A stretch of DNA of 64,000 nt from Verrucomicrobiaceae bacterium (GTDB taxonomy: Bacteria; Verrucomicrobiota; Verrucomicrobiia; Verrucomicrobiales; Verrucomicrobiaceae). Every line of letters starts with the position of its first letter. Within the stretch, counting starts at the first letter, position 1. The stretch spans positions 124,001-188,000 of the forward strand of contig JAEUHM010000003.1 of NCBI GenBank assembly GCA_016795485.1, in the 5' to 3' direction. This document shows positions 4,638 to 28,568 of this stretch, piece by piece. Below the pieces are notes generated by a model. That model made no database searches and was not told where the DNA came from. It saw nothing but the letters and a program-made list of their open reading frames with translations. The position numbers and the translations under genes were made by a program.

Positions 4638-5312
4638 TTACGAGCCCATTGCAGCCTTCACCCGCTGCACAGTGCTAATTCCAATCGGCAATCCCTTGGC
4701 ACTCAGTCCATTTACCAAACGTGCGGTGTCCCTTATTGAGTGGCCCTGCTGAAGGCGCTTCACTATGTCCTTGTGCAGGTCCATCAGCTTGGCTGCATCG
4801 TAGGAGGTGCCTTTGCGCCTGCCAAGTTTCTTGCCTTTCCGGCGTGCCTCCGCCAGCCCGCTGTTAACACGCTCCCGGAGGGTTTCGGTTTCATTTCGCG
4901 CCATCTCAGCAAGAAGGGCCAGCATGATGGATGCAGCCGGATTGCGCTTTCCTGAAGCCATCAGTGTCTCTATCTTCTGGCTGTGCCAGTAGAGGGAAAC
5001 TCCAAGCTCCTCCAGCATTTCCACAAAGCGGTGAACAATTGAGTTCCGCCTTGCCAATCGGGACACTTCATGAACCAGCACTTTCTTGATCTTCCCGGCT
5101 TTGGCCAGTTCCTCCACCTCCTGGAGTCCGTGGCGGTCTGACTCATTGGCCCGGCCTGAGACTCCAAGCTCTTCACAAATGGCCACCACCTCCCAGCCTT
5201 GAGTTTCAGCGTGGGCTTTGAGTTCGGAAACCTGACGGGCTGTTTCCTGCTTTGCGGTTGAGACTCGGACAAGGATTGCAACAGGGGTGTTCTTGCTGGC
5301 TTCTGGTTTCAT
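4638..5312 (-). CDS. Serine recombinase, resolvase/invertase type
   Basis: This 224-residue protein is a small serine recombinase. The N-terminus has AILVRVSTAKQETARQ with the catalytic Ser near residue 19, then LVHEVSRLARR near 80 with the conserved arginines, and the E-helix region NETETLRERV near 139. The C-terminus (about 180-224) is a helix-turn-helix, SIRDTARLV...STVQRVKAAM. Enzymes of this type resolve cointegrates or invert DNA at sites near their own gene. Just upstream lie three copies of AGTGTATTCA or its complement, the likely res/operator. Its presence in an element that already has a tyrosine integrase is unusual; a role in dimer resolution or a separate switch is inference. Confidence 0.88.
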   Translation of the reverse strand: MKPEASKNTPVAILVRVSTAKQETARQVSELKAHAETQGWEVVAICEELGVSGRANESDRHGLQEVEELAKAGKIKKVLVHEVSRLARRNSIVHRFVEMLEELGVSLYWHSQKIETLMASGKRNPAASIMLALLAEMARNETETLRERVNSGLAEARRKGKKLGRRKGTSYDAAKLMDLHKDIVKRLQQGHSIRDTARLVNGLSAKGLPIGISTVQRVKAAMGS

Positions 5313-5329: not shown

Positions 5330-5440
5330 AGTGTATTCAAATAAACAAGTGGTTTAATGAATACACTGTTTCTTCCTCCTTTTGCTTCCCCGCGCTGCCG
5401 TTTTCCGTTGCCTCTCCAGCGAGTGATTTTTTGAATACAC
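5330..5440. promoter_or_regulatory. Inverted-repeat site upstream of the serine recombinase
   Basis: AGTGTATTCA at 5330-5339 faces its perfect inverse TGAATACACT at 5358-5367, and a third copy TGAATACAC lies at 5432-5440. The centres are about 28 and 74 bases apart. The block begins 18 bases upstream of the recombinase start and precedes the antitoxin/PIN pair on the other strand. This layout suits a resolvase res site that doubles as an operator. I see no other gene in 5313-5526. Confidence 0.55.
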
Positions 5441-5526
5441 CTTTTGCCAGTTCCTGCCTGTGCCTGCCTGTTGTTGAAACAAGGGGGTTGAGATTCCCGC
5501 CAGTAGGTGGACACTATGCCGTCGCC

Positions 5527-5718
5527 ATGCCCTCCTCTAAACCATCCGCATCTCCTACTGAGAAGCCTCCCGTTCCATCCAAGGGGGTGAAGCTGGCCCG
5601 TGCCAATCGCTCCCTGTGCAATGAGCAAGGCAGCGAGGAGCGGGAAGCACTCATGAGTAGGGCCATGAATCTGATTTACGGTGGCAATGGCCAGCAAGTC
5701 CCCGCTCGTCGCCGTTGA
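5527..5718 (+). CDS. Small basic protein, candidate antitoxin of the PIN gene
   Basis: A 63-residue frame opens at the ATG at 5527 and overlaps the PIN gene start by about 32 bases. The product begins with a Pro/Ser-rich disordered stretch, then VKLARANRSLCNEQG and a helix EEREALMSRAMNLIYGG. Overlapping gene order, small size and position directly before a PIN nuclease are what type II antitoxins show. No DNA-binding fold is recognisable and I know no homologue, so the function is inference from position. The frame could be extended upstream, but the long Pro-free start there looks like noncoding leader with the recombinase operator. Confidence 0.45.
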   Translation: MPSSKPSASPTEKPPVPSKGVKLARANRSLCNEQGSEEREALMSRAMNLIYGGNGQQVPARRR

Positions 5719-6193
5719 TACCAACGTGCTTCTTGATCTCGCTTTGGAGGTCGAAGCCTGCTGGGATTGTCTCGAAGCTCTGAAGCGCCGCCGTGTGGTT
5801 CCGCGTTTAGTGGTCTTGCCCACCGTGCTCCAGGAGCTAGCCCACCTCATGGACAACGGCCCTAGCGCCACGGCCCGCGCTGCCGCGTTAAAGGCTCTTC
5901 AATCCCTCCTCTCTTGGGGATTTCAGCCCTTGGACCTGAAGCCCGTGGGTCATGGCATCGTGGAACGCATTGGCGATGAAATCCGCTCTGCCGGTCTGCT
6001 CCCAGCCGAGGAGAAGAACGATAGCTACATCATCGCAGAAGCCGCGCTTTGTGATTGTGACATTCTTGTAAGCTCGGATCGGCAGGTTTACGGTGTTGAT
6101 CAGTCCGCACTTCATGCCTTGCTGAAAGATTACCATGTCTGGCCGGTGGCAATCCTCTGGCCCGCGCAAGTCGTTCGTGCGCTGGGCCGTTGA
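5687..6193 (+). CDS. PIN-domain RNase, probable toxin
   Basis: PIN proteins are Mg-dependent RNases, commonly VapC-like toxins. The 168 residues show the acidic active-site set: VAVDTNVLLDLA near residue 10, LQELAHL near 48, EEKNDSYIIAEA near 112 and CDILVSSDRQVY near 128. The ATG at 5687 is preferred; an in-frame GTG lies two codons upstream. It overlaps the small basic gene before it, so the two are likely translationally coupled, and it converges on the RepA-like ATPase gene. Stabilising the element by post-segregational killing is a plausible job. A non-toxin PIN nuclease is the alternative. Confidence 0.75.
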   Translation: MASKSPLVAVDTNVLLDLALEVEACWDCLEALKRRRVVPRLVVLPTVLQELAHLMDNGPSATARAAALKALQSLLSWGFQPLDLKPVGHGIVERIGDEIRSAGLLPAEEKNDSYIIAEAALCDCDILVSSDRQVYGVDQSALHALLKDYHVWPVAILWPAQVVRALGR

Positions 6194-6299
6194 TTCTCTG
6201 GCTCGCCTCCGTCTGTGATGCCAGTTGTTGCCAGTTGATTCAAATCTTCCTCCTCCGGCTCCTCACACATAGGAAACCCGGAGCGGAGGAAATGCTGGA

Positions 6300-7499
6300 T
6301 CATTCCTCTTCTTCCTCCTCCGCCTGCCCCGCGTCTGGTCGATACTCCGGCTTCAGGGTCCAAAGCAGTCCGGCGGAAATGTCGAACAAGTGAAACCACT
6401 TCCCGCCGTCCTTTTTCAGATAATCGGAAACGGTGGAGTCTGTCACTCCAGCTATTTGCATCAGCCGCTTGCCCAGTTCCTTCCGAAACAGTGGACCGTC
6501 CTTCATGGCTTCGTGCAGGTGCTCCAATCGGAGAGCGGCCTTGGGCTCCTTCACCCTCTTTGCGTCCTGCTTCCATTCCTCATAGTCGAAGTCTACAATC
6601 TCCTGAAAACCGTCGTCCACCTGTTCCCATGCGGTCACTCCGCCCGGATCACGGCCAAGGTTCTTCTTTGTGCAATACACGATCACTCTTTTTTCTGTGA
6701 TGTCGTTGGTGAATGGGTCGTAGTTGATCACGCATCGTGCATTGGAGAGCAGCACATAAGAGCCAGCCGCCTTCTCCGCATTTTGCCTGCCTTGATGATT
6801 GTCGTCGGGTCTGCCCTTCTTTACATGGGTGAGGATCATCGTTGCAGGTGCATTCTCCGGGTCCATGCCTCTGCATAGTGACATTACCAAACGGATGGCC
6901 GCTTTCACGTCGCGCTCTTGGTTGTTGTCTTCTGTGAAGGCGTTCCAAGGGTCGAAGACGATCAAATCAAACCCGCCATCTGTGACTATAGTCCGCAGAC
7001 TGTTAAATACTTTTTCGTCCTTCAGGTTGGCCTGCCCGAAATCAAACTCTACGATCTTCACCATCTCGTTGAAGTTTTCGGGAAGCTTCAGCCGCAGCGA
7101 GTCCATGTTGAGCCGCCATTGATCATTTTCTGTTTGGATGATCAGCGTCTTGAACTTGCGATGCACCTTGTAGCCCAGCCAGTTGCCTTCACCCTTCGCC
7201 CCAAGCGTCGCCAGCCAGAGGGAAGCAAACGATTTACCCAGTCCCCAGCCGCCCACTAGAACTGTGTTGGCACCTTTGCGGATGTGAAAGTCTCCCACCA
7301 GATTGATATGGTCCGGCATCTTCAGTTGTCGCAGCTCTCCCAGCGTCCACACTCGGAACGGTGGCTTTTCCTCGGGCTTGCCATTGGCCGCCGGTGCTCC
7401 CGGTGACGTAAGCGTGGCGGTTGGGTCAATCACTCGCTTTTTGGGTGCAGTTGCCTGCTTTTCTTCTGCCTTGTGATTGCTCGGTTCAGGGGTCTTCAT
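6300..7499 (-). CDS. RepA-like AAA ATPase (AAA_25 type), replication or helicase role
   Basis: The 399-residue product is a RecA-fold ATPase like plasmid RepA helicases and phage DnaB-like loaders. A Walker A motif VGGWGLGKSFASL lies near residue 82, preceded by DHINLVGDFHIRKGAN; Walker B is FDLIVFDPWNAF near 156; LTHVKKGRPDD near 196 fits sensor 1 and the following loop. The C-terminus carries a winged-helix-like stretch (LGKRLMQIAGVTDSTVSDYL near 345) and an acidic end. Its start overlaps the stop of the upstream primase-like gene by four bases (ATGA), so both are made together. Together they look like a replication module for the excised element. Confidence 0.72.
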   Translation of the reverse strand: MKTPEPSNHKAEEKQATAPKKRVIDPTATLTSPGAPAANGKPEEKPPFRVWTLGELRQLKMPDHINLVGDFHIRKGANTVLVGGWGLGKSFASLWLATLGAKGEGNWLGYKVHRKFKTLIIQTENDQWRLNMDSLRLKLPENFNEMVKIVEFDFGQANLKDEKVFNSLRTIVTDGGFDLIVFDPWNAFTEDNNQERDVKAAIRLVMSLCRGMDPENAPATMILTHVKKGRPDDNHQGRQNAEKAAGSYVLLSNARCVINYDPFTNDITEKRVIVYCTKKNLGRDPGGVTAWEQVDDGFQEIVDFDYEEWKQDAKRVKEPKAALRLEHLHEAMKDGPLFRKELGKRLMQIAGVTDSTVSDYLKKDGGKWFHLFDISAGLLWTLKPEYRPDAGQAEEEEEE

Positions 7500-8545
7500 G
7501 GAAAGAGATCGTGCAAGAGTTCTGGATTAGCTTTTTGTGAGTCGGGGTGGACGTTGCAGAGGTCGGCCAAGTCCTTTCCCGGTGTGCCCTTCGTGGTGGT
7601 GAAGCCTGCTAGGTCGAACGCATCCACCACGGCAGCGCCCGCCTCTTTGATTTGCGTGGCCCAGTGCCGGGCCGCCTTCATGCCGTGTTCATCCGTGTGG
7701 GGATAAAGGCGCACATGCTTGTTACGGAAGCAGGGCAAACACTCCGCCGCCAGCCGTTGCACGCCCGCGCCAAGCACTGCACAAACGGCCACCTTGTCAG
7801 CCATTCCCAGTTGCAGGGCTAGGTCATGCGCCGCCGCTAAATCTGGTGCGCCTTCTACGAGTGCCACGATGGGAAACGGCTCCGCCTCCTTGATGCCAAT
7901 CGGGAAGTCTTTACCGTGGCCTATGGTGTGAGCCTTGCGGTGTGCTGGCCTGCCGTCCTTTTCGGGCCAGTGTGCCCCGTCTATCCGCCGCAGTTCCACC
8001 AGTCGCCGCGCATCATCTGCTACGGCCCAGAAGCCAGCGCCGTGCCAGTGCTTCCGCCATGGTGCCGCCGCATCATAGCGCCCAAAGTGTAGCAACCCGC
8101 GCCGCTCTGCCAGCTCTATGCCGCCCACGGTGAAACCTCTCAACCGGGCCAGGGCCGCCTTTTCCTCCAGTGTCCCAAGCCTCAAAGTAGGCCATGGCTC
8201 CGGTGGCCGCTCTGGCATCGTCCGCCTGGGAAGCATCTTGCGCAACGGTGGCCGCATTTCATCGGCTCCGGCATCACTCAGGCCCGCCTGCAAGGCACAC
8301 CAGCGAACAGCGCCCGCAGTGTCCAGTTCTGCCGCAGCCTTCACGAAGTCGATCACATCGCCGCCTTCGCCATCGCGGTGACTGTACCATCGTCGGCAAT
8401 CGTCAAAGACACTAAAGCTAGGCCGCCTGTCCTCTGCCCACGGGATGCGGCAACTCCTCGCTGGAGTTCCTGGCAGGCCAAGCGCGTGCCATGCATCCGC
8501 TATGGTGAAGCGTTCCTTCACTTTCTCAATCAATCCACGTTCCAT
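7496..8545 (-). CDS. Primase-like protein with Toprim domain
   Basis: This 349-residue product resembles mobile-element primases. Its N-terminus matches the DnaG CHC2 zinc-domain pattern in shape (RRPSFSVFDD, then GEGGDVIDFV near 62), but only scattered cysteines remain where the four zinc ligands should be. The middle and C-terminal part looks like a Toprim domain: VALVEGAPDLAAAHDLA near 223 supplies the conserved Glu, and RLYPHTDEHGMKAA near 280 supplies the DxD-like acidic pair. It starts 282 bases downstream of the small unknown gene and overlaps the ATPase gene by ATGA. Priming of element replication is inference; nuclease-type Toprim function is possible. Confidence 0.65.
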   Translation of the reverse strand: MERGLIEKVKERFTIADAWHALGLPGTPARSCRIPWAEDRRPSFSVFDDCRRWYSHRDGEGGDVIDFVKAAAELDTAGAVRWCALQAGLSDAGADEMRPPLRKMLPRRTMPERPPEPWPTLRLGTLEEKAALARLRGFTVGGIELAERRGLLHFGRYDAAAPWRKHWHGAGFWAVADDARRLVELRRIDGAHWPEKDGRPAHRKAHTIGHGKDFPIGIKEAEPFPIVALVEGAPDLAAAHDLALQLGMADKVAVCAVLGAGVQRLAAECLPCFRNKHVRLYPHTDEHGMKAARHWATQIKEAGAAVVDAFDLAGFTTTKGTPGKDLADLCNVHPDSQKANPELLHDLFP

Positions 8546-25890: not shown

Positions 25891-26275
25891 CAACATCATC
25901 TCCTGCCCAGTGCGAAGAAGACGGAAGACGGAAGACTGAAATCCAAACACAACACCCCTCTCCGTCTCAGACGTTGAATCACACCTTCACTCAGGTCTGG
26001 TGTCTGATGTCTGGCAGTCTGCTGTCTTCCCCTAACATTCTACTGCCACCATTCTTCTGCCATCCCGTCAAGAATCAAGCACCAGGAACAAAGAACAAAC
26101 CTCCACCACTCCACCCCAAGGCTGTTAATCCGATCAAAATATCAGAGCAATATCGATTGATCAAGATAGGCGTATTCTCACAAAAGCCTCATGACTACCG
26201 ACATCCACGCAAAAGCGCCCAACCTTGACAGAACAAGCCCTCACCACCATGATTCACCATGAAACAGTCCCAGAA

Positions 26276-26295
26276 ATATCACTCGGCAGTGATAT
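26276..26295. promoter_or_regulatory. Inverted repeat upstream of an orphan gene
   Basis: ATATCACT and AGTGATAT with a CGGC loop form an 8-bp perfect dyad 48 bases before the next gene. It could be an operator or a small hairpin in the leader. Confidence 0.35.
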
Positions 26296-26343
26296 CGCCT
26301 CACACTAATTAGACTGTTCGCCCAAGAAACAAAGTCCAACGCC

Positions 26344-26781
26344 ATGGGTTTTCTCAGTAAGCTATTCCGCCCTCCTATGCCACCGCTCCCTTCGGAGGGT
26401 TCAGCGTTTGTCATTACCTACGGCACCATTAGTCCGCTGGCTGCGTTCTGTGCCACTATTCACATGACAGCAGGCGTTGCTGATGCGGTTTGGTCGACCA
26501 TCGCTGGAGGCACGACGAAGCGCACTAATCATCCGATAACTCAAGAGTTTTTTCGAACGCTTTGGAGTGCGATGGACAGTCTACCTGAGTTTAGGGATGG
26601 GTGGACAACCGCTCCCGAGAAAGACCCTGTGAGGGGATTTCACTACTTTCGTGCGATGATCGTGGACAAGGATAACCCGAAAGAGATCTTGTTTGAGCGC
26701 AGGCACGTTATTCCGACCAAGAACGCATCAGAGTTACTGCGTGATCTTTTATATCAGGCAGGAATGGGACATTTGAAGTAA
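26344..26781 (+). CDS. Orphan hypothetical protein, possible cassette gene
   Basis: I do not recognise this 145-residue protein. It begins MGFLSKLFRPPMPPLPSEGS, continues with a small-residue stretch SPLAAFCATIHMTAGVADAVW (about 30-52) that could be a buried helix, and ends with a helix SELLRDLLYQAGMGHL. The rest is mixed alpha/beta in composition. The gene is alone, with 560 bases of repeat DNA before it, and is followed 37 bases after its stop by an 84-bp hairpin repeat. The same repeat follows the next orphan gene, which is the pattern of integron gene cassettes. Confidence 0.7.
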   Translation: MGFLSKLFRPPMPPLPSEGSAFVITYGTISPLAAFCATIHMTAGVADAVWSTIAGGTTKRTNHPITQEFFRTLWSAMDSLPEFRDGWTTAPEKDPVRGFHYFRAMIVDKDNPKEILFERRHVIPTKNASELLRDLLYQAGMGHLK

Positions 26782-26818
26782 CCCAAGTTTACCTTTGACA
26801 CCACGAACCACCAAAGGC

Positions 26819-26902
26819 GAACAATAAAGACCGTATTGCTGCGAGGGGTTGAGGTTGTTGCTTTTGGGCTTCATCGAGCCAGCAACTACGGTCGCGGTTG
26901 AA
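26819..26902 (+). repeat. 84-bp hairpin repeat, copy 1 (attC-like)
   Basis: The unit is 80/84 identical to 27863-27946. GACCGTATTGCTG (26829-26841) pairs with CAGCAACTACGGTC (26880-26893) leaving one bulged C, across a 38-base loop. It ends in GTTGAAC, which fits the GTTRRRY core of integron attC sites; the opposite end (GGCGAAC) fits RYYYAAC poorly. It follows a gene stop by 37 bases. Confidence 0.65.
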
Positions 26903-27283
26903 CACTGCCATGTCGCGATAGCGGCTCCACTGCTGAACTAGGGTTTAGAATGGACATCGGGGCCCAAATACAATAGTTCTTTGCTCATCTTCATATGTGG
27001 TGTGTTGATTGCACTTTACTTGGTTCGCCGGATCGGGACTCCACGTCCTTCCCCGAACATGCGGATAGGTTTCTCCAGAAGCAGCCCGCGATTGATGAAC
27101 GCTGCCGCGTTCACCCTGGCGGGAAGGCCGTTGGCTTTTCTGTCTCACTCCGTTCGGCTCATAAGCGGCCAGCACACCACGCCTTTTTCAATCAGTCGTG
27201 CTGCACCGTTCAACCAGCTTGCGCTGGCTGGACCGCAGCCATAAAGTCTCGGCCCATATCAGGGAGCCACCCATTATTCGTTC
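26903..27283. other. 381 bases without a supported gene
   Basis: This stretch lies between the first hairpin repeat and the next orphan gene. A frame at 26981-27244 (87 residues, hydrophobic start, Arg/Ser/Pro-rich rest) is possible but shows no conserved feature. A short hairpin CCAGCTTGCGCTGG is visible near 27212. I see no promoter I would defend. Confidence 0.4.
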
Positions 27284-27850
27284 ATGCTAGACGCGCCTGT
27301 ATTGCTAAATGGTCTTGAGGCTCACCGCACAGCGGTGTGGCGGTCTCCAAGCGATGCGGTGGATACCCTTCCGCGGATGCTTGGCAGGCGGACGATTCGA
27401 TGCGCTTGGCTGCCCTCCTGGTATGCCTCCGACCAGCCGCTGTATCGAGACATTTGGGCATTCTATAGAGTCTTTCTTCGTGTTAGCAGGCGTTTGGCGA
27501 CTGCTTTGGAGTCCGCAGGTGTTGATAACATCTTTCTGAGTGATGGGATGGGCTACACGAAGCGTTATGGCGAGAACACGCTCATGCTCTCTCTCTCGCT
27601 CAAGCTGCGTATCACCGATATTCAGCACCCAAAGCTCACGGGCATCAGGGCGCTTACATGGGGACACAACATGTTTTTGGTCACATTGGATGATGGCAGA
27701 TGCGTGACTTTGGATGATGAGGAGGGTGCCGGTCAGTGCGATATCGATTCCATAAGTCCCGATGATTGGAACATGCTCGTGACAGCAGAGGTTGACCCGG
27801 TCGATATTTCGCGACTCAACGACTACTGGAACCATTATGCACTGCGCTAA
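27284..27850 (+). CDS. Orphan hypothetical protein, possible cassette gene
   Basis: I do not recognise this 188-residue protein. It starts at ATG 27284 and has a globular composition: RCAWLPSWYASDQPLYRDIW near residue 38, FLRVSRRLATALESAGVDN near 62, then beta-rich LRITDIQHPKLTGIRALTWG and FLVTLDDGRCVTLDDEEG near 130-150, with an acidic C-terminus ending NDYWNHYALR. No signal or membrane segment. Its stop is 12 bases before the second hairpin repeat. A proline-rich frame on the opposite strand overlaps it but runs on into repeat DNA and is less credible. Confidence 0.72.
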   Translation: MLDAPVLLNGLEAHRTAVWRSPSDAVDTLPRMLGRRTIRCAWLPSWYASDQPLYRDIWAFYRVFLRVSRRLATALESAGVDNIFLSDGMGYTKRYGENTLMLSLSLKLRITDIQHPKLTGIRALTWGHNMFLVTLDDGRCVTLDDEEGAGQCDIDSISPDDWNMLVTAEVDPVDISRLNDYWNHYALR

Positions 27851-27862
27851 CCAACCAAGGCC

Positions 27863-27946
27863 GAACAATAAAGGCCGTATTGCTGCGAGGGGTTGAGTTT
27901 GTTGCTTTTGGGTTTCATCGAGCCAGCAACTACGGTCACGGTTGAA
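27863..27946 (+). repeat. 84-bp hairpin repeat, copy 2 (attC-like)
   Basis: Four differences from copy 1 in 84 bases. The same imperfect stem forms: GGCCGTATTGCTG (27873-27885) with CAGCAACTACGGTC (27924-27937), keeping the single bulged base. Here the left end reads GCCGAAC and the right end GTTGAAA. It lies 12 bases after the stop of the orphan gene, matching the gene-then-repeat order of copy 1. Confidence 0.65.
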
Positions 27947-28084
27947 AGTGCCCGGCTTTGGGGCTGAGCATTGTCGGCCTGACTTGTGTGTTTTGTGTTG
28001 GTCTTGCGTTTGCGGCGTGAGTTGGATGCTTTGGTGAGGGATTTTTTGGTAGGGATGGGTTGCAGGTAGCGCTGGATGAACTCT

Positions 28085-28568
28085 ACGGGGCGTACCTCCG
28101 GGTTGATGGGGCGCACCTCTTTGTTCACGGGGAGGTGGCAATAACTTTCCAGATGCTTCTGAAGTTTCGCGGGTAGCGCCCCAGGATGCGCCAGTATTTT
28201 CTTTTGGCGGTGGGGCTGTGCCTCCAGAGACGCGTGAGTCTGCCCGGGCTTTTTGGGGCGTGCCCCGTGGGATTTGGGGTGTGGCTCCCGAAGTTTTTGG
28301 GAACACCCCGGAAAAAGCGGGGAGTTTCTCGGGATGCGCGGGGAACGCCCCGCAAATGATCGGAAAATACCCGCGGAACTGGAGGCGCGCCCCGCGATTT
28401 TTCAGAAGGTTTTGAAGAATCGTGGGGTACAACCCAAGGAAAATGGGGCGCGCCCCAAAAAGCTTCAAAAACGCCCCGTGGAGGGGATGGAACGCCCCGA
28501 AACGCTCTAAAAGCGCCCCGCAAAACACTGGAGCTGCCCCCAGAAGCTGGGGGATAGCTCTGAGCAGC
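28085..28568 (+). repeat. Degenerate 21-bp tandem repeat array, about 23 units
   Basis: The period is exactly 21 bases from 28254 to 28568 and again, with one base inserted, from 28085 to 28253. Each unit approximates NNNGGGNACGCCCCGNAANNN; the GGGG...CCCC core is near-palindromic (GGGGCGCGCCCC in full at 28446) and the other nine or so bases vary. Read in one forward frame it gives seven-residue repeats of the form x-G-x-A-P-x-x, broken by a TGA at 28413. No two units are identical. The rest of 27947-28788 shows no gene. Confidence 0.75.

Follow-up and report, generated by a model that had tools for sequence, protein, structure and literature searches.

Why should two unrelated orphan genes be followed by the same hairpin repeat, and is that repeat the recombination site of integron cassettes? 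Both genes lie within the window (the whole 64,000-nucleotide stretch of Verrucomicrobiaceae DNA that was analyzed):

26344..26781, + strand: orphan cassette gene 1, 145 aa
27284..27850, + strand: orphan cassette gene 2, 188 aa

The proteins of genes 1 and 2 have no match in Pfam, NCBIfam, or PHROG. Each gene has its own copy of an 84-bp hairpin repeat on the 3′ side, separated from it by a gap of 12 to 37 nt (repeat copies, 26810-26902 and 27854-27946; 94% identity over 93 nt). A sequence-only reading of this DNA had described the same arrangement and had proposed that the repeat is attC-like and that the locus is a cassette cluster without its integrase, or a different mobile cassette system. 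We confirm the arrangement and arrive at another account of the repeat: the locus is very probably a fossil cassette cluster in which the attC of each gene was hit at its R′′ box by an element of the IS91 family.

A hairpin repeat that recurs behind small genes

GACCGTATTGCTG and CAGCAACTACGGTC form the repeat stem, whose 3′ arm carries a single bulged C; the copies terminate in GTTGAAC or GTTGAAA; the imperfect stem with one bulged base and both ends are as described earlier. The hairpin alone is poor evidence, because the fold energies of the single copies are unremarkable (z of −1.1 and −0.05 on the + strand) and base-pair covariation in the stem is weak among 15 repeat copies. Recurrence of the repeat, on the other hand, is far beyond chance, since the 6.5-Mb genome holds about 20 copies on about 10 contigs. 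Nearly all of them lie behind small genes, as the sequence-only reading had anticipated when it suggested a genome search for copies at gene 3′ ends. Rfam yielded no match of interest. Other repeated DNA occurs close to some copies: dense G+C-rich inverted repeats (GGGGCGYGCCCC) fill window positions 28240-28560, directly behind the second copy, and long arrays of a short repeat (CCATCCGGCCAGCCGTTTGCT) lie beside degenerate 84-bp repeat copies on contig C4 (L089, 4000-5000 and 7700-8300).

Genes 1 and 2 are integron gene cassettes

In real integron arrays, the first bases of a cassette pair with its own R′′ box. The following boundaries can be assigned at the two genes:

26316..26322, + strand: left boundary of cassette 1, GTTCGCC, the exact reverse complement of R′′ GGCGAAC
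26816..26822, + strand: remaining R′′ box of the cassette 1 attC, GGCGAAC (from the complementarity test)
27250..27254, + strand: left boundary of cassette 2, CGGCC, complementary to R′′ GGCCG(AAC)
27860..27866, + strand: remaining R′′ box of the cassette 2 attC, GCCGAAC (from the complementarity test)

Across 16 slots with the window-type repeat, we compared four bases at each cassette start with the four bases preceding the AAC of the repeat, the cassette boundaries having been assigned by eye. The cassette start matches the reverse complement of its own R′′ in 56 of 64 bases, versus 45.3 expected when partners are shuffled (permutation P of approximately 5e-5).

The same genome carries an integron integrase gene, intI, on contig C16 (TIGR02249, 381.8 bits; cutoff, 265), followed by cassettes with canonical attC sites (GCCGAAC-AAAACGGATGCAGGC...GCCTGATCCGAGAC-GTTAGGC), a type found in 24 of the 38 family genomes searched. 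The absence of IntI noted by the sequence-only reading is thus true of the window and not of the genome. The C16 region (L036, 1121-1260) and contig C27 (L085, 12296-12435) share an identical 140-nt attI-side end with different first cassettes beyond it, and represent two array versions at the same attI region, explained either by strains that differ within the sample or by duplication of attI. Contigs C54 and C27 present the same left contexts as the window and then cassettes carrying canonical attC, and on C13 a repeat-bearing cassette is placed behind a canonical attC. Genes 1 and 2 are therefore real integron gene cassettes, on the basis of the complementarity between each start and its own R′′, the canonical-attC cassettes in the same left contexts, and the intI in the genome.

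To the left of cassette 1 lies a block that recurs in the genome:

25678..26315, + strand: conserved left block U, in an attI-like position, found only in this genome

The last ~100 nt of block U is present in 10 copies in the genome, each before a different small gene, and the copies end in ...ACTG^TT or a near variant (ATTAGACTG^TT). At window positions 26200-26316 and at nine other places in the genome, the block has a conserved TTGACA-like box and a small hairpin. It is absent from the 56 relatives searched, apart from one 30-nt match. Block U occupies the place where attI would stand and may have an attI-like function. On contig C54 (L084, 5502-6302), the cassette after block U encodes a class D beta-lactamase-like protein and has an intact canonical attC; the protein scores 227.7 bits with bla_class_D_main, below the cutoff of 250, and 234 with blaR1_generic.

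The repeat departs from attC

If these genes are cassettes, the repeat behind them might be a second, functional type of attC and the locus an ordinary CALIN (a group of attC sites with no integrase of its own). The distance of 12 to 37 nt from the orphan genes to the repeat, the complementarity of R′′ to the cassette start, and a bulged hairpin with a GTTRRRY-like end all speak for this reading, to which we give very little credence for the reasons that follow. Cutting at G^TT makes the R′ box of attC (GTTRRRY) vary according to which cassette comes next. In the repeat, almost every copy, here and in other genomes, has GTTGAA or something close to it, regardless of the sequence that follows. 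The right "core" GTTGAAC, previously taken for an attC box, is then element sequence, constant or nearly so in all copies. The extrahelical base is also on the wrong side: the repeat has it in the 3′ arm, whereas the top strand of C16-type attC has it in the 5′ (L′′) arm, and VCR and other true attC sites likewise have the bulge in the L′′ arm (PMC2727003). A covariance model (R2) built from the attC sites of this genome's own integron has no match at either window repeat; its only two matches in the window (16.7 and 10.7 bits) are both away from the repeats. Finally, in other genomes this sequence forms an end of an IS91-family element, as described below.

Reading the repeat on the − strand, as an attC in inverted orientation (GTTCAAC ... 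GTTCGGC), places the bulge in the correct 5′ arm and gives an R′′ that fits RYYYAAC. We judge this still less probable than a second attC type: beyond GTTCAAC, other genomes carry a Y2 transposase, the gene's own boundaries are left unexplained, and stem covariation is slight. One apparent gene with two different repeats, on contigs C50 and C51, was set aside, as both contigs end there and the assembly is untrustworthy.

Of the earlier interpretation, then, the cassettes standing away from their integrase are retained, and the repeat as their attC is not. The covariance-model check that had been proposed scores both repeats as non-attC, and the copies are nonetheless not at random places. The left "core" (GGCGAAC or GCCGAAC), which had seemed a poor RYYYAAC, is the true R′′ of a destroyed attC.

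The repeat as the origin end of an IS91-family element

The repeat is, by its sequence, the origin (right) terminus of a Y2 rolling-circle element from the IS91 family, present in the window as worn-down relics:

26823..26904, − strand: relic copy 1, IS91-family origin (right) end; profile hit 26824-26904, E = 0.046
27867..28014, − strand: relic copy 2, the origin end together with ~75 nt of conserved adjoining sequence (block D1); matched by the profile at 27867-28002, E = 8.5e-6

We built a profile of the origin end from 15 intact elements, all outside this genome, and the two window repeats are its two best matches in the whole window. The match of copy 2 begins on the base after the AAC of R′′ and that of copy 1 two bases after it; the transposase of copy 1 would read on the − strand. 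Copy 1 taken alone reaches only the E value given above with this independent profile, which counts against the IS91 explanation.

When other genomes of the order were searched with a covariance model of the repeat, weaker relatives emerged; almost every one lies behind an orphan gene and continues into much the same tail (GTTGAACAAGCCCGG...TATGCGCTTTGTGTT). In one relative genome this tail runs into a Y2 (HUH) transposase (PF04986), the enzyme characteristic of the IS91 family. Three genomes (G078, G079, and G051) have a repeat-like end 240 to 272 nt behind the stop of a Y2 transposase open reading frame (ORF), and a fourth (G054) has one 156 nt behind an overlong transposase ORF; in all four, a tyrosine recombinase gene lies upstream of the transposase. 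These elements have distinct origin and terminator ends with the origin behind the transposase gene, again as in the IS91 family. Within the genome under study, contig C44 retains a relic of a transposase C terminus behind the repeat and its conserved tail (46% identity, E = 8.6e-5), and a Y2_Tnp search of the genome gave no match and no intact copy. Because no intact transposase is left in the genome, we regard the window repeats as relics.

The tail of copy 1, extending to about 26938, may be the other end of the element, fused to the origin end by an internal deletion; a profile of the terminal end lends this candidate no support and located no other end in the window. Nor does the R2 model detect an attC remainder behind either window copy. 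Deletions that removed the missing ends and attC remainders are therefore assumed.

Intact relatives occupy attC sites

We scanned 84,980 species genomes with a transposase alignment and obtained 58 loci, of which those with at least 44% identity belong to Verrucomicrobiota, plus one metagenome-assembled genome labeled Acidobacteria. At these loci, all readable origin ends adjoin an R′′-like box (GGCGAAC, GCCGAAC, GCCTAAC, GCAGAAC, CGCCAAC, GGCTAAC, GCTGAAC, and others). The other end adjoins an attC remainder in the 15 elements examined, with a conserved AA near +15/+16 and, in most of them, a stem with bulges in the 5′ arm. Position and orientation are the same in every readable intact insertion. 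A clear example is contig C53 of G051, where the origin end abuts R′′ GGCGAAC and the other end, GCCGCGTAGCGGCTTTGTTCAAC, lies ~2.7 kb from it against the attC remainder AAGGCGCTGGTGCCAACCGCC...GGCGGTCGGCACGGAATAGGCGTT. The remainder on contig C14 (L157) is of the canonical type and scores 75.9 bits with the independent R2 attC model. As a set, the attC remainders show no significant excess of stability over shuffled sequences (mean z, −1.1), and the assignment to attC therefore rests on position, sequence, the +15/+16 AA, and individual stems. In one further element, in G079 (L203, the same region as L194; terminal end at 5170 on the − strand), the other end adjoins the origin end of a second copy, and the pair is perhaps the product of two insertions in one site.

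An R′′ box ends in AAC, often GAAC, and IS801, a relative of IS91, inserts next to GAAC, GGAC, CAAG, or CGAC (PMC3189936). The ends could thus have met GAAC-like tetranucleotides by chance, with cassette clusters as merely tolerant places to land. We hold this to be very unlikely, if marginally less so than either reading of the repeat as attC: the readable intact relatives all show a full R′′ box, an attC remainder, one orientation, and one position, and a tolerant landing zone would also yield insertions within cassette genes and in either orientation.

An IS110-family relic in the spacer

The spacer between genes 1 and 2 holds the remains of a different element:

26950..27249, − strand: remnant of the left end of an IS110-family element, with the first codons of its transposase, MKMSKELLYLGLDVH

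The IS110 element is complete or nearly so on contigs C27, C16, and C1 (copies at C16 [L036] 5420-6987, C27 [L085] 5875-7830, and L091), where it is inserted in the R′ box of a canonical attC, and several further left-end relics are present. The C16 copy scores 221 bits with NF033542 (cutoff, 140). On C27 the junctions with attC are GTT/GATATGG and AGTCT/CGCC (slash, point of joining), and the window shares the left-end sequence. An IS110 transposase and insertion on the R′ side of attC are the features of the IS1111-attC group. We think it probable that the attC between genes 1 and 2 received two insertions, the IS91-type element at R′′ and the IS110-type element at R′, and then lost its middle part.

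About five loci have the repeat fused to this same IS110 left-end fragment, with differing flanking cassettes. The IS91 model accounts for them only with the addition of homologous recombination between repeats, which is our best guess as to how the fusion spread. Two other accounts of this segment were discarded. The intact right end of the IS110 element in this genome is unlike the repeat, so the repeat and spacer are not the termini of that element, and the spacer (26903-27249) is not a gene-less cassette with its own attC, as it carries the IS110 left end.

A proposed history of the locus

Taken together, we propose that an integron integrase would have brought in each gene as a cassette and that an IS91-family rolling-circle element would then have hit each attC at the R′′ box (RYYYAAC^). 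Reading toward R′′, the order in the inserted element would be the Y2 transposase, ~240 nt of noncoding DNA, and the hairpin origin end against AAC, with the element's other end (GCCGCGNAGCGGCTTAGTTCAAC) adjoining the rest of attC. Relics of the origin end are all that the genome retains, and they would leave the attC broken and the cassette frozen in place. The joining at R′′ is visible in the junctions themselves, and the intact relatives show both the identity of the origin end and attC on both sides of the element. In the simplest mechanism, the HUH transposase would act on an attC that is exposed as folded single-stranded DNA, joining the origin end to the AAC of the R′′ box; choice of the target in that form is what would be expected of an HUH enzyme. 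Insertion would part R′′ from the remaining site, so that the cassette could no longer be excised and would be immobilized.

Comparison with known systems

The element resembles IS91 and IS801 in its Y2 transposase, the origin end behind the transposase gene, the GAAC-type neighbor, and the short origin-end fragments it leaves. IS801 and similar relatives of IS91 transpose through rolling-circle replication that starts at the right end, and they frequently leave behind fragments with that end in common (PMC3189936). Unlike IS91 and IS801, the element described here is directed to a single precise point within a structured site, namely the R′′ box of attC, and the intact elements examined have, in addition, a tyrosine recombinase gene ahead of the transposase gene. 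ISCR1, found with class 1 integrons, is likewise an IS91-like element tied to integrons (PMC6218425).

Insertion aimed at attC is already known for the IS1111 family and for group IIC introns. The IS1111-attC group (Tetu and Holmes 2008; Post and Hall 2009; both cited in PMC11187229), which targets one end of attC, accommodates the IS110 element of this genome (C16, C27, and C1). IS1111-attC elements have an RNA-guided DEDD transposase and here lie on the R′ side, whereas the window repeat belongs to a Y2 element and lies on the R′′ side. Group IIC-attC introns are mobile elements that prefer attC hairpins (PMC7923331); they are retroelements with an RNA and a reverse transcriptase and have no sequence relation to the window element. 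The locus is like a CALIN in that its cassettes lie away from the integrase, with intI elsewhere in the genome (PMC7923331). Unlike in a CALIN, the attC sites in the window are broken, and attC-based software is not expected to report the cluster.

Implications for cassette mobility

In a literature search that took in a minority of subscription journals, we found no published attC-specific IS91-family element. We lean toward the view that a whole Verrucomicrobiota clade of the IS91 family is dedicated to attC and recognizes the folded single strand rather than a tetranucleotide. If so, attC would have a third, independent class of mobile DNA dedicated to it, and the first with an HUH enzyme, which itself acts on single strands. 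The interest of the locus resides in this element rather than in the window relics. The element could also serve to test whether an HUH transposase recognizes a folded attC hairpin as its target, a question of single-stranded DNA common to two fields that seldom meet. Recombination at attC is considered the main route by which integron cassettes are retained or lost; by inserting at R′′, a transposon clade would break attC, lock the cassettes where they are, and make them invisible to attC-based software.
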